A DNA stretch of 34,108 nt from an uncultured Bacteroidota bacterium (GTDB lineage: Bacteria; Bacteroidota; Bacteroidia; 2-12-FULL-35-15): positions 1-34,108 of the forward strand of contig CAIRRW010000506.1 of the NCBI GenBank assembly GCA_903881065.1, written 5' to 3'. Position 1 is the first letter of the stretch. Each line of letters begins with the position of its first letter. A program made the position numbers and the translations under genes. Positions 6,863 to 34,108 of the stretch are shown here, piece by piece. Below the pieces are notes generated by a model. It searched no databases. It was not told where the DNA came from and was given only the letters and a program-made list of their open reading frames with translations.

Positions 6863-9800
6863 ATGGCTTTCAACAGAAGAGATCAAAAACTTAAAAGCAA
6901 TTTCTCGAAAATTACTATAAGCCTGGCGTCACCTGAAGCAATTCTGGAACGTTCAAGTGGTGAGGTAGTAAAGCCCGAAACCATCAATTACAGAACTTAC
7001 AAACCAGAAATGGGCGGATTGTTCTGTGAACGAATTTTTGGTCCGGTAAAAGATTGGGAATGTGCCTGTGGAAAATATAAACGTATTCGTTACAAAGGTA
7101 TTGTTTGTGACCGTTGTGGGGTAGAGGTAACGGAAAAGAAGGTTCGTAGAGAGCGTATGGGGCACATTGGTTTAGTTGTTCCTGTTGCACATATTTGGTA
7201 TTTCAAATCTTTGCCAAATAAAATAGGATATCTATTAGGTTTACCAACAAAAAAATTGGATACTATCATTTACTATGAGCGCTATGTAGTAGTAAATGCT
7301 GGTGTAAAAGCATCTGATGGTGTAAACTATCTTGACTTTTTATCTGAAGAAGAATATTTGAATATTCTTGAAACATTACCAAAAGATAATCAGCATTTGG
7401 ATGATGAAGACCCTAATAAGTTTATCGCTAAAATGGGTGCTGAGGCATTGCAGGAATTATTGAAGCGCGTAGATTTAGATGCTTTATCTTTCGACTTGCG
7501 AATAAAAGCAAATACAGAAACATCTCAACAACGTAAAAACGAAGCATTGAAACGTTTGCAAGTGGTTGAAAGTTTCCGTCATGCAAATGATCATGTTGAA
7601 AATCGTCCTGAGTGGATGATTGTAAAAATTGTACCTGTAATTCCACCGGAATTACGTCCGTTAGTTCCATTGGATGGCGGTCGTTTTGCGACATCTGACT
7701 TAAATGACTTATACAGACGTGTTATTATCCGTAACAACCGTTTGAAACGATTAATAGAAATTAAAGCTCCGGAAGTAATCTTACGTAACGAAAAACGTAT
7801 GTTACAGGAGTCTGTGGATTCATTATTTGATAACTCACGTAAATCGAATGCTGTGAAAACAGAATCGAACCGTGCTTTGAAATCACTTTCTGATTCATTG
7901 AAAGGTAAACAAGGTCGTTTCCGTCAGAACTTACTTGGTAAACGTGTAGATTATTCAGCACGTTCGGTAATTGTTGTAGGACCTGAATTGAAATTACACG
8001 AATGCGGATTGCCGAAAGATATGGCAGCAGAGTTATTCAAGCCATTCATCATTCGTAAAATGATTGAGCGAGGTATTGTTAAAACTGTTAAATCAGCAAA
8101 GAAAATAGTTGACAAGAAGGAGCCTGTAGTTTGGGATATTTTGGAAAACGTATTGAAAGGACATCCAGTTCTTTTGAATCGTGCTCCGACATTGCATAGA
8201 TTAGGTATCCAGGCTTTCCAACCAAAATTAATTGAAGGAAAAGCGATTCAGTTGCATCCTTTGACTTGTACTGCGTTTAACGCGGATTTTGACGGGGATC
8301 AAATGGCAGTTCACGTTCCATTGGGACATGCTGCAATATTGGAAGCTCAGTTATTAATGCTTGCTTCGCATAACATTTTGAACCCAGCTAACGGTGCTCC
8401 GGTAGCGGTACCTTCTCAGGACATGGTGCTTGGTCTGTATTACATGACCAAAGGAAAAAAATCTACTAAAGAAGAAAAAGTAAAAGGCGAAGGTCTTGTA
8501 TTTTATTCTGCAGAAGAAACTATTATTGCTTACAACGAAAAGAAAGTTGATTTGCATGCTTTTGTTAAGGTTCGTTTGCAAGTAAAAGAAGGCGGCAAAA
8601 TTGTTAATAAATTAATGGAAACTACTGTTGGTCGTATCTTGTTTAATCAAGTGGTACCGGTAGAAGTAGGTTACATTAATGAGCTATTGACTAAAAAATC
8701 TTTAAGAGATATTATCGGAACTATTGTTAAGGAAACAGGTATGGCTAAAACAGCTAAATTCCTTGATGATATTAAAGGCTTAGGTTATATGAGTGCATTC
8801 CGTGGCGGTTTATCATTTAACTTGGGAGACGTAATGATTCCTGAAGATAAACCGAAAATGATTGCAGATGCAAATGCTCAGGTGGAAGAAGTGGTAGGAA
8901 ACTATAACATGGGTTTCATCACTAATAATGAGCGTTACAATCAGATTATCGATATCTGGACACATACTAACTCACGTATTACTAAAAAAGTATTGGATAC
9001 ATTGACGAGCGATCGTCAAGGATTTAATCCGGTATTTATGATGTTGGATTCTGGTGCGAGAGGTTCAAAAGAACAGATTCGTCAGTTGGGCGGTATGCGT
9101 GGATTGATGGCGAAACCTCAAAAAGGTGCCGGCGGCGGTGAGATTATCGAAAACCCAATCCTTTCTAACTTTAAAGAAGGATTATCCATCCTTGAGTATT
9201 TTATTTCTACTCACGGTGCACGTAAAGGGCTTGCGGATACGGCGTTGAAAACAGCGGATGCAGGTTACTTAACCCGTCGTTTAGTGGATGTGGCTCAGGA
9301 TGTTATAATCACAATAGAAGATTGCGGTACATTACGTGGATTGATTGCTACTCCATTGAAGAAAAATGATGAAGTGGTTGAATCGTTATACGATAGAATA
9401 CTTGGAAGAACTGCAGTTCATGATGTTTATAATCCATTAACAGGTAAAAAGATTATTGCTTCAGGAGAAGAAATTACTGAAGATTATGCAAAACAAATTT
9501 CTGATTCTCCAATTGAGCAAGTAGAGATTCGTTCCGTATTGACCTGCGAAAGCAAAAACGGTGTTTGCGGTAAATGTTACGGACGTAACCTTGCTACAGG
9601 CAGAATGGTTCAGCGAGGTGAAGCAGTAGGTGTTATTGCTGCACAATCAATCGGTGAGCCGGGAACACAGTTGACATTACGTACATTCCACGTTGGAGGT
9701 GTTGCGGGTGGCTCTGTTGCTTCTTCTAAAATAGAAGCTAAATACGATGGTATCCTTGAAATAGATGAGTTGAAAACAGTAAAACGTAAATCAGGAAAAG

Positions 9801-24584: not shown

Positions 24585-25667
24585 CTATTTTATCAATGCC
24601 AATCCTTGCAATGCTGATGTATCACCAGGAGCAAGCATTAATACTTTATTAAACAAGAGTTTAGCTTCTGCTGTTTTGCCTGTTTTGAAATTTGCCCATG
24701 CGTATAATATTAAACCATCGTAACTAAAAGGATATAGATTTACTACTTTCTCGAGATATTGATAAGCAGCGGAATAATCGTTTTTTGAATAATAATAAGA
24801 TCCAAGACCATAATTCGCAAAACTATTTTGAGGATTTATTTCAACAATTTTCTTGTTTTGTTTGCTTATTTCATCATAGTTACCTAATGCACCTAGCGGA
24901 TAATTGATGCCAAAGCGAGGTTCAATAGAATTTGGCTTTAAGTCAATTGCTATCTGATAATATTTAATCGCCTCCTTATTAAGCCCTGAAAGGTAATTTA
25001 ACCATCCCATACGCAAGTTAACATCATAATATTTAAGATCGTAAATGTCTTTTATTGAAGTTATAGCGGAAGCATAATCTTTTTTATATTCAAAATCATA
25101 ACTTTTCGCAAATGCAGCAATTACTTTATCGCTTTGCTTCTCCGACTTGTTTATCTGTTGCCAGGTGTCTCTTAAATAAGGCTCATAACCGGAAGGATAT
25201 AAACTAATTATCTTCTCGAATTGTTTTTTGGCTAGGTCATAGTTCTTTTTGTTGTAATAAATATAGCCTAACTGATAGTTGGAATTAACATCAAGCGGAT
25301 CAACTTCCAATATTTTTTTATAAACTACTTCTAATTCATCCATTTGATTTTGTGCATAAACAGGATAAATGAGTCCAGTTTTTGCTTCAATGGAATAAGG
25401 CATTAATTTAACAGCATTTTGGTAATAAGTAGCAGACTCCTTATTCTTTCCTGCTTTATAGTACAACCAGCCCAACCGAAGATTCTCTTCGTAAGAAGTA
25501 GTTTCATAACTATCCATAAGCGCTTTTATTGCGCCATCATAATCTTTATTTTTTTCAGCTGCATAACTTTTAGAAAAAGCACTTGCCAACTTAACATTTT
25601 GAGCAAACGAATTGTTGATACTCAATAAGAGGATACCTCCGATAATAATTTGTTTGATTTTTTTCAT
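24585..25667 (-). CDS. Exported tetratricopeptide-repeat protein with internal duplication
   Basis: The 360-residue protein starts with a signal peptide (MKKIKQIIIGGILLLSINNSFAQ). The rest is TPR-like helical repeats in two homologous halves of about 155 residues: AFSKSYAAEKNKDYDGAIK...LRLGWLYY at about 29-75 corresponds to AFAKSYDFEYKKDYASAIT...LRMGWLNY at about 185-230, and both continue into KKNYDLAKKQFEKIISLYP / KNDYSAAYQYLEKVVNLYP. No catalytic motif is visible. It probably acts as a periplasmic scaffold or partner protein. It is the last gene of the six-gene minus-strand operon, 17 nt after the TPR/outer-membrane gene, whose N-terminus is also TPR-like, so the two products may work together. 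Confidence 0.75.
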   Translation of the reverse strand: MKKIKQIIIGGILLLSINNSFAQNVKLASAFSKSYAAEKNKDYDGAIKALMDSYETTSYEENLRLGWLYYKAGKNKESATYYQNAVKLMPYSIEAKTGLIYPVYAQNQMDELEVVYKKILEVDPLDVNSNYQLGYIYYNKKNYDLAKKQFEKIISLYPSGYEPYLRDTWQQINKSEKQSDKVIAAFAKSYDFEYKKDYASAITSIKDIYDLKYYDVNLRMGWLNYLSGLNKEAIKYYQIAIDLKPNSIEPRFGINYPLGALGNYDEISKQNKKIVEINPQNSFANYGLGSYYYSKNDYSAAYQYLEKVVNLYPFSYDGLILYAWANFKTGKTAEAKLLFNKVLMLAPGDTSALQGLALIK

Positions 25668-25684: not shown

Positions 25685-27217
25685 TTATTTATTTGTAAAT
25701 TTATTAAAGTTTTTAATTCGTATTCCAATAAAAAAACTGTTGTAATAATAATTAAGTGTTACAGGTAAATTTGTTCGTTTATCTGCAGGAACGGGCAAAG
25801 TAGTTAAATTGTTTTCATAGGTGTAAATTGCAAAAAAGTCAAGATGCTTTCCTGCAGGAATATTGCCAATAATTGAAAGTCGAGAAAGTGTTTTATCTGA
25901 TGAATTATTTATGAAAAGTCCGTTCCCTTCAATAATATTATTATTTGTATCGTCTTTTTGTTTATCATTAAAATCAACCAAATAGTTTAATGTAAACGAA
26001 ATCTTACTAGTAGGCATAAATGTAATATAAGGTGATATTGCTGCCCTTCCTTCAGCCGAATCAATAGTATAAACATAGTGTGCATCACATCCAATTACAA
26101 GTCGGTTATTACCAAATGGGGCATAGGATATAGAAAGAGTACTCTGTACCCTCTTAGTGTTGTTAATATTTGAAAAAGTATTTCCAAGAGCTAAAGATAG
26201 ATTGGAAATGTATTTCGAGACAGTAAATGCCTCAACAAAATAACTACTATGTGAGGTTGATTGTGAACTTAGTAATTTTGGGTTGAATGGTACTTCTACA
26301 ACTGTAGGAGGACCCATAGGAGGATGACCAATAATAGTACCAAATACAGTATTTTCTGTTTTGTGAAGAATATTACTACTAATATAATGTACTGCTGGTG
26401 ATATACTCCAATTTTTTTTTAAAGGAATATTTGCTCCCAGATAATATTGATATTGATTGGTAATATCGTCATTATTATTTATTATTGGTGCAGAAAAATG
26501 GTTGGTTGAATTCACTGGAAAAGGAGGAGGGTCGTGTAAATCAAAAGTTTTAAAGCCATGATTATAATGCGAACTTTCCTGATTAAAATAGGTAAAGGCA
26601 TGAAATAAATAAATCCTATTCTTTACGTAATGCCCCAAAGCAACCTGAAAATACTTGGCGGTGGAATAATGGATTGAATCAGTTTTATTTACAGTAATTG
26701 AATCATTATTGCGAATATTATTTAATTGTTCAGGATGTGGGTTTTCTAAATAAGATGAACTTGGCTGTTTAACACCACCACTCATCTGTATTAAAGCTAG
26801 TGATGATATTTTATCTATTCCTGTTTTAGCTATCAACTCGGTATCAAATGACTTACTTAGAACTCGCGCATCAACATATCTGCCTGAATAAATATAACAA
26901 TAGTATAGATATTCTTTCGAAAGATTATCACCTGAATAAAACGTTAAAGCCTTCTGAAATTGTTTAGTGGCAAACAGATATTTTTTTTTCTCATAATAAG
27001 CAATCCCGAGTCTCAAACGCAAATAGTAATAATCAAAATCCTTTTTTATTGCTTTGTTAGAGAAGGTAATAAGTTCGTTCCAATTCTTGTCAATATAAAG
27101 CTGATAAGATTTTTTTTCAACAAAGGCCGTATTTAGTGTGTCTTGGGCATAAGTTTTCCCTAAAGTAAAAATGAAAAGTAAGATAATTATTCTCCGATAT
27201 TTTCCGCTGAAATCCAT
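25685..27217 (-). CDS. Outer-membrane beta-barrel protein with N-terminal TPR region
   Basis: The 510-residue protein has a signal peptide (cleavage near GKTYAQD, residue 24), a TPR-like segment (about 28-130: LRLRLGIAYYEKKKYLFATKQFQKAL), a linker, and from about 185 a long series of alternating polar/hydrophobic strands with many aromatic residues, ending in strands LNYYYNSFFIGIRIKNF. This suggests a periplasmic TPR domain on an outer-membrane barrel, a general layout also known from YaiO-type proteins; I see no specific family signature. The start codon overlaps the end of the upstream urea-transporter/M23 gene by 31 nt, which points to translational coupling. A role as outer-membrane channel or receptor for the operon's substrate is inference. 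Confidence 0.65.
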   Translation of the reverse strand: MDFSGKYRRIIILLFIFTLGKTYAQDTLNTAFVEKKSYQLYIDKNWNELITFSNKAIKKDFDYYYLRLRLGIAYYEKKKYLFATKQFQKALTFYSGDNLSKEYLYYCYIYSGRYVDARVLSKSFDTELIAKTGIDKISSLALIQMSGGVKQPSSSYLENPHPEQLNNIRNNDSITVNKTDSIHYSTAKYFQVALGHYVKNRIYLFHAFTYFNQESSHYNHGFKTFDLHDPPPFPVNSTNHFSAPIINNNDDITNQYQYYLGANIPLKKNWSISPAVHYISSNILHKTENTVFGTIIGHPPMGPPTVVEVPFNPKLLSSQSTSHSSYFVEAFTVSKYISNLSLALGNTFSNINNTKRVQSTLSISYAPFGNNRLVIGCDAHYVYTIDSAEGRAAISPYITFMPTSKISFTLNYLVDFNDKQKDDTNNNIIEGNGLFINNSSDKTLSRLSIIGNIPAGKHLDFFAIYTYENNLTTLPVPADKRTNLPVTLNYYYNSFFIGIRIKNFNKFTNK

Positions 27218-29385
27218 TTATCTTTTTCCTTAATTGTAAACTTTGATATTCTATTGTTAGATAATTCCAACTCGAAATTAATTTCTCTGTTATTTCCTCC
27301 TACAGCTTTGGCAATAGCGTTAGAAGCAATCTTTATTTTTGTAGGGTGTTGATAGTCGTCAATTTCTTTAAATGTGGATGAGTATTTTGCTTTTAGGAAT
27401 ATAGAGAATGGTGCAATAAAATCCTGCAGTGTTTTTATAATGCCAGGATAGAATCCGCTTATCGGTAAAGCATCAGTTACCTTCATTTCGTGGAAATAGC
27501 TCAATAAAACTTTATGTGTTCCCAAGTAGAAATAATAAAGTAAAGAGTCAGTATCACCTTTAAATGAAGTAAAATAATGCAGTGTTTCATTATTCACAAA
27601 ATAAGCAATTGATTTTGTTTGGTGACAATACATATAAGTTAGGTTTGCCGAATCGACAAATACTTCCCATTTCACTTTTGATTTCTTATCACCATTCGTC
27701 ACTTCAAACTCCATAACCATTCCTGGTGTAAAATGAAATGCTTGAGTCAATAATGGAGTAGGAGTAGTCCTGAATATTTGCTGACCCTCCAAAGGATAAT
27801 CGAAGGAATGAAATTCGTATTTATTATTTTGTTTTGATACATAATATGCAATAGGATATTTCAATGTCTTCGCCCCAACAAACTCAGTTGACTGAAGTTG
27901 GAAATGAATATGCGGTTCAGGCGAACGGCCTGAATTACCACAATTAGCAAGGATATCACCTTTCTTTACATAATCTCCAATTTTAACTTTAAAACTATTT
28001 GCTTTAATATGACTTATCTTGCTGAAAAAATAATCACCATGTTTTATTACTATTGAATTGCCCCAGTTTTCTCCAAGATTCACATCTCCAATAGCATTAT
28101 CTTCTATTCCATCCACAAGGTTAATAATGTAACCTGCACAAGGAGCGAGGATCGGCAATGAATAACAAAAGAAATCTGAAACTTCTTTTCCTGGAAGTTT
28201 AAATGTTTTTTGTGTTTCATCTGTTACTACAAAGTCCCAAGCGTAGCGATAATCTTCCTTGTGAGTTATTTCTCCTTCATGCGCCTGCGATACAAACCAT
28301 TGTCCATAAAAAGGAAGATGAATATGAAAATAAGTGTCATTTTTAAATCGCTCCAAACTATTAGTATAGGCATATAAATTCTTTTCAGGGGAAAACTGCT
28401 GGTATTGAACAAGGTTAAGTTTGTGCACGAAATACCTATTGTTCAATGTGAATATTATTAAAATAACTACTAGTGAAAAAGGAAGAGAATATAATGGCAA
28501 TTGAAAAACTCCAATCATATTTCCTAACGCACTTATCATTAACCCTACCAAAGGAACAGATATTAATGCCCATAAATAGGAGCGAGTAGAAGCAATTAAA
28601 AAATATCCACCGATGGCAATTGCAGATAAAATATAATTAAAACCTATATAACTATATTCCAGTTCAGATAAATTCCCTTTGACAAAATAGCAAAACAGAT
28701 AACCGGTAAAGAAGCCTACAATAGAAAGTGAAAATGCAATGCGCGAGTATATAAATAATCCAATCATTATTAATAACCCTGATATAATATTGTATTGAAA
28801 GAAGATTGCTCCTAATGATTTTAGATATACTTCAGCAAGTAATGGGAATTTCCAAGAGTTTGTTTTTTCATAAATATTAACGAGTGTCGCTCCTCCAATA
28901 TTCCATAATTCATTGAAAGAATAAATGCTTCTTTCACTTAATTGTAATGCTCCAAAACTTCGTGAACACAGAAGAATCATCCAAATGCCTATTATGAAAG
29001 GCAAACTTAAAAATGGAACTTTATAAGCTGAAAATACGGATGCAATTGAAACAGTAAGAATAAGTGTTAGGAAAGAAGCGATTAGTAGCATCACGAAAAA
29101 TGGTATGGTACAATGGAAAAATATTCCCATCGCAAGACCAGTAAGTAATGAATTGTAGCTGTATGTTCCACTTCGGATTATAATTGGATTAAGACCTAAT
29201 AGTTTTGCGAAAAAGATAGAAGAAAGTGCACAGATAATCCCGCTTAATCCGGTAAAAGGATCAATAAAAGAGGCAGCAATAACAAAAAGTGCAAGCCAAA
29301 TGTTGTTCGAAAACAACATTTGGCTGTAACTATTTGTTATACTATCTCTATAAAACTTTACCTGCTCTTTTACGCTACCCTGCAC
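27187..29385 (-). CDS. Urea-transporter-family protein fused to an M23 metallopeptidase domain
   Basis: The 732-residue protein has two parts. Residues about 25-315 are a urea-transporter-like membrane domain with the family's internal twofold repeat: IDPFTGLSG, YSYNSLLTGLAMG and VPFLSLPFIIGIWMIL in the first half; YIGFNYILSAIAIGGYF and LPLYSLPFSLVVILII in the second. Residues about 365-500 are an M23/LytM domain: a histidine near 369/375 with YAWDF (D384), SHI (H459) and GNSGRSPEPHIHF (H492, H494), so the zinc ligands look intact. Residues 500-732 are unassigned. M23 enzymes usually cut peptidoglycan or glycine-rich peptides. The start is GTG 29385, 3 nt after the stop of the PLP-enzyme gene. 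No urease or urea-cycle gene is nearby, so the transported solute may not be urea. Confidence 0.82.
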   Translation of the reverse strand: MQGSVKEQVKFYRDSITNSYSQMLFSNNIWLALFVIAASFIDPFTGLSGIICALSSIFFAKLLGLNPIIIRSGTYSYNSLLTGLAMGIFFHCTIPFFVMLLIASFLTLILTVSIASVFSAYKVPFLSLPFIIGIWMILLCSRSFGALQLSERSIYSFNELWNIGGATLVNIYEKTNSWKFPLLAEVYLKSLGAIFFQYNIISGLLIMIGLFIYSRIAFSLSIVGFFTGYLFCYFVKGNLSELEYSYIGFNYILSAIAIGGYFLIASTRSYLWALISVPLVGLMISALGNMIGVFQLPLYSLPFSLVVILIIFTLNNRYFVHKLNLVQYQQFSPEKNLYAYTNSLERFKNDTYFHIHLPFYGQWFVSQAHEGEITHKEDYRYAWDFVVTDETQKTFKLPGKEVSDFFCYSLPILAPCAGYIINLVDGIEDNAIGDVNLGENWGNSIVIKHGDYFFSKISHIKANSFKVKIGDYVKKGDILANCGNSGRSPEPHIHFQLQSTEFVGAKTLKYPIAYYVSKQNNKYEFHSFDYPLEGQQIFRTTPTPLLTQAFHFTPGMVMEFEVTNGDKKSKVKWEVFVDSANLTYMYCHQTKSIAYFVNNETLHYFTSFKGDTDSLLYYFYLGTHKVLLSYFHEMKVTDALPISGFYPGIIKTLQDFIAPFSIFLKAKYSSTFKEIDDYQHPTKIKIASNAIAKAVGGNNREINFELELSNNRISKFTIKEKDKWISAENIGE

Positions 29386-29388
29386 AAT

Positions 29389-30747
29389 TTATAATTTGAA
29401 ATCTTTTAAATATTTTGGCGTTACTTCGTCTCCCTGAATACTATTTAATGTTTCTCGGTTCCTTATAATATGAGCTTTTTCTTCCATATCAATCATTATA
29501 ATTGCCGGTCGCAATGCAATAAACTGCATCCATTGTGTCATATTATACGCTCCCACTGTATGCACTACCACATGGTCATCTCGTTTTAATGGTGGCAAGG
29601 TAATGTTTTCACGAATAACATCAATATTCATACACAATGGGCCATACAATACAGCGTCTTCGGTATATTGGCTAAACTCCTGTGCCGGACTAACTTTATG
29701 GTCATACCAGAAAGAAGTGAATAAAATATTTACTCCGAAATCCATAATTGTTGCACGTCTTCCATCTGCTAATCGTTTGTTCGAGATAACTGTTCCTAAC
29801 AATGATCCTGCTTCATCTATTAACGCCCGTCCTGTTTCAAGTATTAATAAAGGTAACTCGTTCTCAACAAAACCTGCATTTAAAATCGCTGTAGTTATTG
29901 CTTCAGCAAACTGATCAAAGGATGGAGAAGAGTCCGCACCTTGTAAATACGAGCCTTTTAGCGTGTTTTTAGATGCAAAACCTCCACCCATATCAATGTA
30001 TTCAACATTCTTTTTATATTTCTTTTTGATGCTTAAAGCAAGTTCCGAAAGTTTGGAAGCTGCCACACCGTAAGCACTAGGAGCCAACATAAATGTTCCT
30101 ATATGTGAATGCAAGCCTACTAAATCCATAGTGTCATTCAACATTATTTTGTTGATGGCATCCCAAGCCTGTCCATTCTCATAGTTGAAACCAAATCTGT
30201 CCCACATCGGATATACTCCAGTGTCCATATTCACTCGTATTGCTACTCTAGGTCGCTTTTTGGCATTTGTTGCCAACTCTTTTATCAAATATAATTCATC
30301 TAAATGATCAATATGAATCAATGAATTATTCTCAATAGCAAGTTTTAATTCTGCTTCTGTTTTATCTGGACCGTTAAAAATAATCTTATTTCCCGGTACC
30401 CCATTATGTAAAGCTTTGTTGTATTCAAAACCCGATACAACCTCCGCCCACGAACCTTCTTGGTGAAATACATTACAAACTGCATTGTTGTAATTCGTTT
30501 TGTACGACCAGGCAAACTGCACTTTAGGATAACGTGTTTTAAACGCTCTATTCGCATCTCTTAAAGTCCTGCGGATGGTCTTTTCGGAGATTACAAATAA
30601 TGGTGAACCATATTTATTTATAAGTTCTTCTACCGAATTCCCATCAATATGAGTTACCGGTGCGTATTCAGTTTTCTTTCCGAATTTGTTCATTACCCCA
30701 ACGTTCAAACGTTGTATTACGGGGCGTTCATACTGTAGTCTTTTCAT
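29389..30747 (-). CDS. Fold-type III PLP enzyme, DAP/ornithine decarboxylase family
   Basis: From ATG 30747 the protein has 452 residues; the frame extends to a TTG at 30771 (8 more residues), which is less likely. The N-terminal TIM-barrel holds the PLP lysine K83 in FAWSYKTNYN, HSHIG (213-217), DMGGGF (252-257) and ETGRALIDEAG (304-314), which bind PLP phosphate. The C-terminal beta domain shows GPLCMNID with C372 and D376 at the catalytic cysteine and substrate-aspartate positions, and GAYNMTQW (Y401). It therefore should decarboxylate, or possibly racemise, an amino acid or amino-acid conjugate. The ETGR and LCMNID sequences differ from lysA and speC types, so the substrate is open. It lies 83 nt after the ATP-grasp gene and 3 nt before the transporter gene. 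Confidence 0.85.
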   Translation of the reverse strand: MKRLQYERPVIQRLNVGVMNKFGKKTEYAPVTHIDGNSVEELINKYGSPLFVISEKTIRRTLRDANRAFKTRYPKVQFAWSYKTNYNNAVCNVFHQEGSWAEVVSGFEYNKALHNGVPGNKIIFNGPDKTEAELKLAIENNSLIHIDHLDELYLIKELATNAKKRPRVAIRVNMDTGVYPMWDRFGFNYENGQAWDAINKIMLNDTMDLVGLHSHIGTFMLAPSAYGVAASKLSELALSIKKKYKKNVEYIDMGGGFASKNTLKGSYLQGADSSPSFDQFAEAITTAILNAGFVENELPLLILETGRALIDEAGSLLGTVISNKRLADGRRATIMDFGVNILFTSFWYDHKVSPAQEFSQYTEDAVLYGPLCMNIDVIRENITLPPLKRDDHVVVHTVGAYNMTQWMQFIALRPAIIMIDMEEKAHIIRNRETLNSIQGDEVTPKYLKDFKL

Positions 30748-30830
30748 ATTCTGTATTGTTATATTGTTCAATGGTTATATTGTTGTTGTGTCACTTGATT
30801 TTCAAATTAGCACATTCAAAAATTTAATCT

Positions 30831-31880
30831 CTATAATTCTCCTAAAGTTGAAATCTTTTCAAACTCTTCTAACTCTACAATTAAATCGTATGAATATCTA
30901 ACAAATAATTTACCCACATCATACTTTTTAAAAGGTTTTACATCTTCACCTAATGCCAGACTTACCAATGCTTCCGGATGGTTTTGTCCACAACCTACTG
31001 CCAGGTAAACCCATGCTGGGAAACGAGGATTAATCTCCAACAAATAATAATCACCTTCATTGGTTTTAATAATCTCTAGTTCCATACCACCTCTCCATTT
31101 ACAGCCTTTAAAAAGCTTTTTCGTCATATCCAGCAAGTTTTTATCATCCAGTGATATACCTGACCATGCTTTCCCTTTGTCTGTAATGTACTGTTTACGC
31201 ATCGGTACAGCACCTATCACATTTCCTTTGCCGTCTCCTATGGCTGTTACATTTACTTCCTGGCCATATACCATTTCCTGAATGATAATTGGCAAGCCCC
31301 ATTTAGCGCTTATCTTATTGAAATAAGTGGCAGCTTGTTCAGGTGTATAAGCAATCGAAGCATCATAAAATTTACCTTTAACAACTAATGGATAAGTAAA
31401 TTCATCTTTAAGTGCAGGTATTTCAGCAGTACTGAAAATCATTTTTCCATACGGAACTTTAATGCCGTGTTTCCTTCCATACTCCGAAAGATTTGCTTTG
31501 TGACGCTCCTCAAACTGTTCCAAAGTAGGTAGAAATGTTTTTATCTTCATTTCCTTTTTTAACGTATCCGCCAACGTGATAAAATTATAAAGCTCAGCAT
31601 CAAAGTTTGGAATCAATACATCAATCTTTTCTTTTTCATGTATATATTTCAATCGTGTAAGCAATGCAGCCTTTCCTGTCGATGGAAATGGAATCTGGTA
31701 TGTTTTGTCAACAAGATCATGCATATAAATACCCGGCTCCAATGTCTCATACGAAAGCCCAATGATGCGTACATCATATAGTTTACTTTCTTTCAATGCA
31801 CGTATTACCGGCACTCCCGGGCCGGGACTGTCAATGGCATTTAAGCCGGTAACAGCTACATTAATCTTTTTTCTTTTCAT
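30831..31880 (-). CDS. ATP-grasp carboxylate-amine ligase-like protein
   Basis: The 349-residue protein has an N-terminal Rossmann-like domain (INVAVTGLNAIDSPGPGVPVIRALKES) and an ATP-grasp domain of the carbamoyl-phosphate-synthetase-like type: YPLVVKGKFYDA with K168, IIIQEMVYGQEVNV with E202 and E209, a GAVPMRKQYITDKGKAWSGI loop, and MELEIIKTNEGDYYLLEINPRFPAW with the metal-binding E282-x-N284-x-R286. Such enzymes activate a carboxylate as acyl phosphate and join it to an amine or other nucleophile. The start overlaps the end of the PqqD-like gene by 20 nt, a strong hint of joint synthesis and function. The substrates are unknown; the pairing suggests a peptide or an amino acid presented by the small protein. 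Confidence 0.86.
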   Translation of the reverse strand: MKRKKINVAVTGLNAIDSPGPGVPVIRALKESKLYDVRIIGLSYETLEPGIYMHDLVDKTYQIPFPSTGKAALLTRLKYIHEKEKIDVLIPNFDAELYNFITLADTLKKEMKIKTFLPTLEQFEERHKANLSEYGRKHGIKVPYGKMIFSTAEIPALKDEFTYPLVVKGKFYDASIAYTPEQAATYFNKISAKWGLPIIIQEMVYGQEVNVTAIGDGKGNVIGAVPMRKQYITDKGKAWSGISLDDKNLLDMTKKLFKGCKWRGGMELEIIKTNEGDYYLLEINPRFPAWVYLAVGCGQNHPEALVSLALGEDVKPFKKYDVGKLFVRYSYDLIVELEEFEKISTLGEL

Positions 31881-32121
31881 CGTTTTCTGTAAGTTTTATT
31901 TTACTTAACATCTCCACAAAGTCGAAATAATCTTTTTCAAAACTTACCTCATCTATCATGTATAGTTTTACAATGGCAGCTTTTATTTCCTGAGGAGTTT
32001 TCTCTTCCTTAAGCATTTTTATTATCTCCAACCCTATCGGATTAGTTGAATAGGAGTCGCCTGTTGATGGATCAAATACAAATCCCGAATCGCTTAATGC
32101 TACGTTTCTTTTTATTTTCAT
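31861..32121 (-). CDS. PqqD-like small protein (RiPP recognition element type)
   Basis: The 86-residue protein begins MKIKRNVALSDSGFVFDPSTGDSYSTNPIGLEIIKMLKEEKTPQE, the usual PqqD pattern: a beta hairpin (SGFVFDPSTGDSYSTN) followed by helices (GLEIIKMLKE, QEIKAAIVKLY) and an aspartate/glutamate-rich third helix (FEKDYFDFVEML). PqqD-like domains bind leader peptides of ribosomally made, modified peptides and hand them to enzymes. A charged tail (KLTENDEKKKD) ends the protein and overlaps the ATP-grasp start by 20 nt. It is the first gene of the six-gene operon, with its own promoter box. No precursor peptide gene is evident next to it, so it may also act as a carrier or partner subunit. Confidence 0.75.
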   Translation of the reverse strand: MKIKRNVALSDSGFVFDPSTGDSYSTNPIGLEIIKMLKEEKTPQEIKAAIVKLYMIDEVSFEKDYFDFVEMLSKIKLTENDEKKKD

Positions 32122-32191: not shown

Positions 32192-32218
32192 GCTAAATTG
32201 GAACTGTTCCTAATTAGC
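32192..32218. promoter_or_regulatory. 27-bp near-palindrome upstream of the PqqD operon promoter
   Basis: Arms GCTAAATTGGAAC (32192-32204) and GTTCCTAATTAGC (32206-32218) surround one central T and match at 11 of 13 positions. It straddles the stop codon of the LytTR regulator gene and lies at about -45 to -71 of the predicted start near 32147, a usual place for an activator site. No T-run follows on the minus strand, so a terminator is less likely. Confidence 0.45.
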
Positions 32219-32905
32219 TAAATGGCGCATTGCATCCTTCCTGTATTTATTACCAATCGGAATCTCTCGTCCGGCAATTGAAATGATTCTGCTTTTTACA
32301 TTTTCGATTCTATTCAGAGGAATAATATATTTACGATGAACACGTATAAATTCATTCGTGTTTAATTTCGATAGCATCATTTTCATAGTAAGTCGGGTAG
32401 TTATCCGCTTCTGATTCTGCAGGTAAATATTAATATAATCTCCCAGTGATTCAATATAAAGTATATCCGAAAGTATAAACTTCCTCAATCCATAATCAGC
32501 ACGCAGAAACATATTTGGTTTTTCTTCTGCATTATTGCTATTCAATTTAATGTTGTAATTTAAAATAGCTTTATTCAACGCTACAGATAATCTGTCTTCC
32601 GAATAAGGTTTTAGCAGAAAGTCAATAGCATTCATGTTATATGCATCCACAGCAAGGTCTTTTGTTTCCGAAACAAAAATAACCATGGTGTTTAGCTCCG
32701 ATAATAATCTGAAATCAACCCCCGAACCTTTTGCCATCTCAATATCTATAAACAGCAAGTCAACTGGCGATTTGTGCAAATATTTCAGTCCTTCATTAAT
32801 AGTAGTAAATAGCTTTTTGAGTTGAAACCTTTGCGAATCAATACACCCTTTTTCTATAATTTCTTTAAACAAAGGTTCTTTATCTATAATTATGGCTTGT
32901 AACAT
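32210..32905 (-). CDS. LytTR-family response regulator
   Basis: The 231-residue protein has a receiver domain (1-115) and a LytTR DNA-binding domain (about 130-230). The receiver has the phospho-acceptor in LLFIDIEMAKGSGVDF (D54), the switch segment VSETKDLAVDAY and the lysine in DFLLKP. The first loop reads IIDKEPLF instead of the usual DDEPL, so one acidic magnesium ligand is replaced by lysine. LytTR shows FILSDILYIESLGDYINIYL, VHRKYIIPLNRIENVK and IPIGNKYR. No sensor kinase is adjacent. It may control the operon that starts 88 nt downstream on the same strand, or its own gene; target sites were not identified. Confidence 0.9.
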   Translation of the reverse strand: MLQAIIIDKEPLFKEIIEKGCIDSQRFQLKKLFTTINEGLKYLHKSPVDLLFIDIEMAKGSGVDFRLLSELNTMVIFVSETKDLAVDAYNMNAIDFLLKPYSEDRLSVALNKAILNYNIKLNSNNAEEKPNMFLRADYGLRKFILSDILYIESLGDYINIYLQNQKRITTRLTMKMMLSKLNTNEFIRVHRKYIIPLNRIENVKSRIISIAGREIPIGNKYRKDAMRHLAN

Positions 32906-33047: not shown

Positions 33048-33650
33048 TTAATCCAACAGCGAATTCAGAGATTTTCTGTCCTTTTTACCCAGATTTTTAT
33101 AGTCGCTTACCGTATAGCCTGTAATCTGTTTAAACTGATTGCTCAAGTATTGAACACTGCTGTATCCCATAAAATAAGCTATTTCACTAAGCGTATATTC
33201 ATCATAGCTTATCATCTCCTTTATTTTCTCCGCTTTTATAAGTATAATATATTTCTCCAAAGTCATTCCGGTAGTTTCCGAAAACACCTTGCTCAAATGC
33301 TGATACGATTGTTGCAGCTTCTCACTCAAATAATCCGAATTCTTGATCAGCGAAGTATTATTATTACCATAAAAAACAAACTGAATCACTGTAGTCTTTA
33401 TCTTTTCCACCAGCTTTTTATTCGTATCCCGCAACAGTTCGAAACCATTTTTTTTCAGAATCTCATTCACCACATCCAAATTAAATACCTGCGTATCCAG
33501 CTGAATCTCCGCTTCACCCAAGCTCACATTTATCACTTCTATAAACCCCGTCCGTTCCAGTTCCTGCCGCACTAGTTTAATGCAACTATCACTCACCATA
33601 TTTTTAATATAGATAATCGTTCGTGTAGTATTGAAGTTATGTTTTTGCAT
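33048..33650 (-). CDS. AraC-family regulator with an HMA-like N-terminal domain
   Basis: The 200-residue protein has a ferredoxin-like N-terminal domain (about 11-73: IIYIKNMVSDSCIKLVRQELERTG...GEAEIQL...ILKKNGFELL) that resembles heavy-metal-associated domains, and a C-terminal AraC DNA-binding domain (about 105-195: YLSEKLQQSYQHLSKVFSETTGMTLEKYI, TLSEIAYFMGYSSVQYLSNQFKQITGYT). This layout is common among Bacteroidota regulators, whose N-terminal motif usually reads MVCxxC. Here it is MVSDSC (S20, C23), so the first metal-binding cysteine is replaced by serine. No metal transporter gene is in view. A good promoter lies directly upstream. Direct control of neighbouring genes is possible but not shown. 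Confidence 0.88.
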   Translation of the reverse strand: MQKHNFNTTRTIIYIKNMVSDSCIKLVRQELERTGFIEVINVSLGEAEIQLDTQVFNLDVVNEILKKNGFELLRDTNKKLVEKIKTTVIQFVFYGNNNTSLIKNSDYLSEKLQQSYQHLSKVFSETTGMTLEKYIILIKAEKIKEMISYDEYTLSEIAYFMGYSSVQYLSNQFKQITGYTVSDYKNLGKKDRKSLNSLLD

Positions 33651-33703: not shown

Positions 33704-33858
33704 TCGTCTCGCAGGTCGGAAGTTTCAATATTTACAGAAACAAAAACCGCTTTACATTATTAAATTGGAAGAAACATCAACTGAAGTTCAAATCTATAAA
33801 ATCATCCTTCTCAAATTTCTTTACACATCTTTCCTCTCGAAACTCGAAATTATGTCCA

Positions 33859-33942
33859 CGCGACATCAAATTAAACACTCGCGATGTCAAATTAAACACT
33901 AGCGACATCAAATTAAACACTCGCGATGTCAAATTAAATGCT
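33859..33942. repeat. Array C: four 21-bp repeats with alternating inverted cores
   Basis: Four units of exactly 21 bp lie at 33859-33879, 33880-33900, 33901-33921 and 33922-33942. Each is CGCGAnnTC-like (first base A in unit 3) followed by AAATTAAACACT (AAATTAAATGCT in unit 4). Units 1 and 3 carry GACATC, units 2 and 4 its reverse complement GATGTC, in strict alternation. The array lies about 160 bp upstream of the AraC-gene promoter. The minus frame across it translates as FNLTSRV/FNLMSRV heptads and is judged an artefact. In the rest of the 458-bp end region (33704-33858 and 33943-34108) I see no gene I can support. Confidence 0.85.
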
Positions 33943-34108
33943 ATTTTATTTGAAAAAAACACCCTCAGAAAAATGTTTCCCCCTTTTTGTGCCCGCCAGT
34001 CCGCTTCCTATCCTAAAAACCTCTTTTCTCGTTTTCTAAAGAAATCCTTCATTTTGAGCGATTTTCGAAAAGCGCAATTATTTCTGAAAACAAAGAACGA
34101 GTTTCCAG

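Follow-up and report, generated by a model that had tools for sequence, protein, structure and literature searches.

The locus examined here raises the question of why a domain of the urea transporter (UT) family should be joined in a single chain to a peptidase domain of the M23 family, and of what such a protein might transport or cleave. The gene lies in a window of 34,108 nucleotides, the whole stretch of DNA analysed, from an uncultured Bacteroidota bacterium, and its product is organized as follows:

27187..29385, minus strand: UT::M23::C-terminal-domain fusion, GTG start, 732 aa (Pfam, AF2, Foldseek)
28447..29346, minus strand: UT domain, residues 14-313, with an altered selectivity filter (Pfam PF03253, pore comparison)
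27853..28317, minus strand: M23 peptidase domain, residues about 357-511, with H375, D384, H459, H492 and H494 (Pfam PF01551, invariance, Foldseek to LytM/M23)
27190..27852, minus strand: C-terminal beta-rich domain, residues 512-732 (AF2 pLDDT 93; LolA/RseB- or lipocalin-like, at low confidence)

Domain architecture of the fusion protein

Residues 14-313 match the Pfam UT profile (PF03253) with an E-value of 8.2e-60 and a score of 203 bits, the cut-off being 25 bits, and the match spans profile positions 2-290 of 292, that is, a full-length domain with its two homologous halves. An AlphaFold2 model of the whole protein, built on 32 homologues, reaches a pLDDT of 90 and a pTM of 0.83, and a Foldseek search with this model retrieves dvUT (3K3F/3ME1) first, with a TM-score of up to 0.87 on the target, followed by LytM/M23 structures. 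The solved relatives of the protein are dvUT and animal UTs for the UT part and LytM-type peptidases for the M23 part. The initial annotation had proposed a UT-like domain with both halves, to be withdrawn should the family profile fail on it; the profile matches, the fold is that of dvUT, and the UT assignment stands. The NCBIfam 'yut' match, at 131 bits, falls far below its cut-off of 275, and the domain is hence better described as a relative of UT than as a standard Yut.

The Pfam Peptidase_M23 profile matches residues 431-499 (E 9.7e-13, 48.6 bits; cut-off 28.7 bits), and the M23 fold begins upstream of this match, near residue 355. The zinc-binding and catalytic residues H375, D384, H459, H492 and H494 are the same in all 38 aligned homologues, in agreement with the earlier claim that the domain keeps the HxH and aspartate ligands. 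The fusion thus shares with M23/LytM endopeptidases (LytM, lysostaphin, LasA, Csd/Pgp3) the HxH motif, the catalytic histidine, the aspartate and the upstream histidine, as well as the LytM fold by Foldseek, but it differs from them in that its M23 domain follows a 10-TM channel and is predicted to be cytoplasmic, and in that the first histidine stands nine residues ahead of the aspartate instead of four (H-x8-D, the HxxxD spacing being absent). LasA offers a precedent for a long spacing in the first M23 motif.

The 221 C-terminal residues, modelled alone, adopt a confident fold (pLDDT 93) that returns only weak Foldseek matches, the best of them to LolA (E 7e-4, TM 0.31) and others lipocalin-like, so that the initial annotation was right to leave this region of about 220 residues without an assignment. 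A natural variant of 532 aa (locus L067, 1810-3408) does without the C-terminal beta domain, which indicates that the domain is dispensable in one lineage.

Distribution and genomic context

A survey of 396 genomes, all from the Bacteroidota, identified a UT above the cut-off in 44 of them: 34 carry the fusion, in one case as a split copy, and about 10 a stand-alone UT of 280-332 aa. The phylum-wide search returned full-length homologues of the fusion at 31-42% identity in many families, so that it is not an assembly artefact, and a scan of species genomes added closer ones at 51-86% identity. In the resulting tree, the fused UTs form a single clade (support 100/99) apart from the stand-alone UTs plus dvUT. 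A search of plasmids yielded plain UTs and plain M23 proteins only; the UT::M23 fusion was not found among them.

The fusion gene belongs to a Bacteroidota cassette of five to six genes, arranged in the order PqqD/RRE, ATP-grasp, fold-III PLP decarboxylase, UT::M23, (outer-membrane barrel) and periplasmic TPR protein. In the window, the remaining members are:

31861..32121, minus strand: PqqD-like protein (RRE fold), 86 aa, first cassette gene (Pfam PF05402 E 5e-7, above cut-off)
30831..31880, minus strand: ATP-grasp ligase, 349 aa (Pfam ATPgrasp_Ter E 5e-10; NCBIfam PRK12767-type)
29389..30771, minus strand: fold-III PLP decarboxylase, 460 aa (Pfam Orn_Arg_deC_N E 2e-29; PDB 7KH2 E 5e-58)
25685..27217, minus strand: 510-aa secreted protein, probably an outer-membrane barrel, with a weak TPR region (signal peptide and TPR region both read from the sequence)
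24585..25667, minus strand: periplasmic TPR protein with signal peptide, 360 aa (Pfam TPR; conserved last cassette gene)

This order is kept in 38 loci and in 7 further ones, gaps being confined to contig ends and to the outer genes, and both the PLP enzyme and the ATP-grasp adjoin the fused UT at every locus where contigs allow. Close homologues of the ATP-grasp (E below 1e-40) occur in 34 of the 396 genomes, exactly the 34 with a fused UT, and none of the cassette genes is present at any of the 10 stand-alone UT loci. The initial annotation had seen the fusion and its PLP partner and had proposed a functional link between the two; their constant adjacency supports that link more strongly than before, but the 86-aa PqqD gene and the conserved cassette had escaped notice.

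The PqqD gene overlaps the ATP-grasp gene by 20 nt; PF05402 is matched by 33 of 33 members of its family, establishing the presence of a discrete RRE/PqqD protein, and the cassette copy is the only PqqD in the host genome. In the ATP-grasp enzyme, the E-I-N-P-R metal/ATP motif and K168 fall within the set of residues conserved at 95% among 37 homologues. The gene for the 510-aa secreted protein, a probable outer-membrane barrel, shares 31 nt with the fusion gene; homologues of this protein are found in about half of the loci, and a barrel-like protein of ~280 aa takes its place in others.

Some loci present peculiarities of their own. Upstream of the cassette, the window encodes a LytTR response regulator (32210-32905) and an AraC-type regulator (33048-33650); of these, the AraC-type gene is also present in the close relatives L033, L034, L038, L039, L041 and L064, and the LytTR gene in L033. 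At the window end, at approximately 33850-33960, several short and nearly identical units (CATCAAATTAAACACTCGCGATGT...) are arranged in tandem. In one subclade (L051, L054-L058, L060, L061), a secreted protein of ~280 aa whose C-terminus bears a type IX secretion signal is encoded directly upstream of PqqD and is a possible client. One genome carries, at contig ends (L068 and L065), a second cassette copy with a broken fusion frame at the opposite end of the contig, which may be a contig-end overlap or a duplicate. In locus L064, whose genome is a single contig, the fusion gene is split into two frames around 9500-9530, at an A-rich run within the conserved linker, through error, slippage or a programmed frameshift. 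Both frames join inside the linker, and L064 was hence rejected as a separate cytoplasmic M23 gene; being a frameshift or slippage site, the split was not used as evidence on topology.

The L064 split is also the one observation in favour of the idea that UT and M23 came together by chance fusion or faulty annotation and share no function. Since about 45 loci have a single reading frame, the fusions form one old clade and their co-occurrence with the ATP-grasp is perfect, this idea is already refuted by conservation and commands practically no credence.

Selectivity filter and association with urease

The Sm threonines and leucines are identical in dvUT, UT-A2 and UT-B (PMC4357013). The fused UTs depart from the urea filter of Sm threonines (T130/T294) and E or Q at So position 187: in 32 of 32 sequences E187 is replaced by A, L, S, I, F or Y, never by E or Q, and T130 by Ser, while position 294 is occupied by S, V, T or A. 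All nine stand-alone Bacteroidota UTs examined retain T130, T294 and E/Q at 187. The fused proteins do keep F27, L84, L247 and the invariant Asn, and mostly F190, F243 and Q24, so that the pore does not appear obviously closed and may still conduct something, although its sequence makes urea an unlikely substrate. The comparison with dvUT pore residues suggested in the initial annotation has hence a divided outcome, the slot phenylalanines and Q24 being largely kept and E187 and T130 lost, with T294 variable.

The genomic data point in the same direction. Urease was not found in the window or in the host genome, extending to the whole genome the earlier remark that none lies near the fusion. 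Of the 22 fusion genomes, a single one has a genuine urease, which lies on a different contig, the remaining matches being weak (E about 1e-4 to 1e-5), and urease linkage of the fused UT was consequently rejected. Among genomes with a stand-alone UT, urease occurs in 6 of 10, in five of them no more than about 7 kb away from the UT. Overall, the fused UTs resemble UT/SLC14 proteins (dvUT 3K3F, Yut, UT-B) in their whole-domain profile match, in a TM-score of 0.85-0.87 on dvUT and in their largely kept slot aromatics, but depart from them in their fusion to M23, their missing urease link, their altered filter, their separate clade and their score under the Yut cut-off.

Loss of the conserved filter residues E187, T130 and T294 would also be expected if the UT fold had become a non-conducting membrane anchor or receptor, serving to hold the M23 domain and the beta domain beneath the membrane. 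This is the most likely alternative to the explanation that we favour below, but we regard it as unlikely: the complete UT fold recovered by Foldseek and the retention of F27, L84, L247, the Asn and most of F190, F243 and Q24 go beyond what a bare anchor needs.

Topology of the peptidase domain

In UT proteins, the N- and C-terminus are both cytoplasmic. The fused UTs are predicted to share this arrangement: predicted inner segments contain 15.2 K+R per 100 residues, versus 3.2 in outer segments, the asymmetry holds in 32 of 32 sequences, and residues 322-404, between the channel and the M23 fold, contain no further hydrophobic segment. Together, UT homology, the positive-inside signal and the lack of an added segment strongly suggest, from sequence, that both chain ends are cytoplasmic, in which case the M23 and C-terminal domains would hang beneath the inner mouth of the pore. 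The initial annotation had not chosen a side of the membrane for the M23 domain; the prediction favours the cytoplasmic one.

The main argument against this topology is that M23 and LolA-like domains otherwise occur outside the cytoplasm. The C-terminal half might be periplasmic if the UT clade were inverted or crossed the membrane an odd number of times, M23 then acting there to trim the cell wall or a product already exported. Besides the usual periplasmic location of both folds, the signal peptides of the TPR and barrel partners and the existence of secreted M23 relatives speak for this arrangement; the uniform positive-inside asymmetry and the uninterrupted 322-404 stretch make it improbable. 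The nearest stand-alone M23 relatives do have signal peptides. Membrane-anchored M23 proteins of the same subfamily, with a histidine-to-aspartate spacing of about 12, are encoded on Thermus and Thermomicrobium plasmids (L086, 4782-5741; L087, 4653-5696); a clear topology was not obtained for these relatives.

A cytoplasmic M23 domain would also suit an uptake role, in which the channel would bring in a solute, a small amide or a urea-like compound, for use by the M23 domain or by cytoplasmic enzymes, the more so as UT channels are passive and bidirectional. We nonetheless consider uptake improbable, given the absence of urease from the host genome and from 21 of the 22 fusion genomes searched, the altered filter and the biosynthetic character of the cassette genes (ligase, decarboxylase).

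The PLP decarboxylase and the cell wall

The nearest solved relative of the PLP enzyme is the N-citrylornithine decarboxylase FslC (7KH2, E 5e-58), followed by DapDC and BtrK. Its catalytic residues are kept, K91, C380 and Y409 being conserved in at least 95% of 37 homologues, and GPLCM stands where DapDC has its C-E-S motif. The enzyme has in common with FslC a GPxCM motif and, as also with BtrK (2J66/7RU7) and DapDC, the fold-III decarboxylase architecture; unlike that of FslC, its setting contains no siderophore synthetase, and an ATP-grasp is its partner. Its NCBIfam lysA (TIGR01048) score is 218 bits against a cut-off of 298, the cassette homologues score 213-244 bits, below the cut-off in every copy scored, and a separate lysA above the cut-off is present in 19 of 21 cassette genomes; the enzyme was hence rejected as a housekeeping LysA. 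In the window's own draft genome, a lysA above the cut-off was not found.

The same lysA match lends some appeal to a role in the cell wall, with the M23 domain, the DapDC-like decarboxylase and the D-Ala-D-Ala-ligase-like ATP-grasp all acting on wall peptides, since diaminopimelate peptides are central both to M23 enzymes and to the chemistry of DapDC. The sub-threshold scores, the separate lysA genes, the replacement of the DapDC motif residues and the predicted cytoplasmic location of M23 render such a role very unlikely.

A putative biosynthetic and export pathway

Taken together, these observations suggest that the cassette probably does not handle urea but produces a peptide or small molecule destined to cross the cell envelope. 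Our leading explanation, which we advance tentatively, is that the fusion constitutes the membrane component of a pathway in which a ligase and a decarboxylase work in the cytoplasm and M23 processes their product, which then passes through the UT-derived pore. The PqqD protein would recruit a substrate on which the ATP-grasp enzyme would form an amide, and the PLP enzyme would decarboxylate the conjugate, as FslC does with N-citrylornithine and BtrK with carrier-bound glutamate. The M23 domain might then cleave a peptide or amide bond to trim the product or set it free at the mouth of the channel, from where it would exit through the pore to be handed to the TPR and outer-membrane partners. 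This chain (recruit, ligate, decarboxylate, cleave, pass, hand on) is drawn from the chemistry of the domains and from a gene content that, like the linkage, residue conservation and fold of the cassette and its fusion protein, is directly observed. Transport of the decarboxylase product through the fused UT is plausible; a charged amine, on the other hand, would cross a UT pore poorly, which counts against an export role. Accepting the fusion as a new export machine, with a UT-fold pore for a substrate other than urea, a cytoplasmic M23 domain, hand-over to TPR and barrel proteins and no ABC pump, is a further step that we hold to be possible but doubtful.

The scheme recalls other systems only in part. 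A discrete PqqD protein adjoining an ATP-grasp ligase is also seen in RRE/PqqD-plus-ATP-grasp RiPP-type pathways, but the cassette has a PLP decarboxylase and a UT-peptidase instead of an ABC exporter, and a small precursor ORF shared across families was not found within 3 kb of it, leaving a RiPP reading unproven. As a system, it would resemble a peptidase-containing exporter in which a passive channel replaces the ABC pump; the likeness to C39-ABC exporters lies in the idea alone, a cytoplasmic-side peptidase and membrane passage in one chain, given that the fusion combines an M23 metallopeptidase and a UT channel with no ATPase and that there is no homology between the two.

The domain families involved are known, but their combination and setting are apparently new, as no description of the fusion or of the cassette was found in the open-access literature searched. 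The cassette, present in about 9% of the sampled Bacteroidota genomes (34/396), hence offers a tangible starting point for finding a new metabolite or modified peptide, and its fusion proteins should not be annotated as urea transporters. If the proposed pathway is correct, a fold known as a passive urea pore would have been put to use in biosynthesis and secretion, in combination with a peptidase that probably lies on the cytoplasmic face of the membrane, where M23 enzymes are unexpected.
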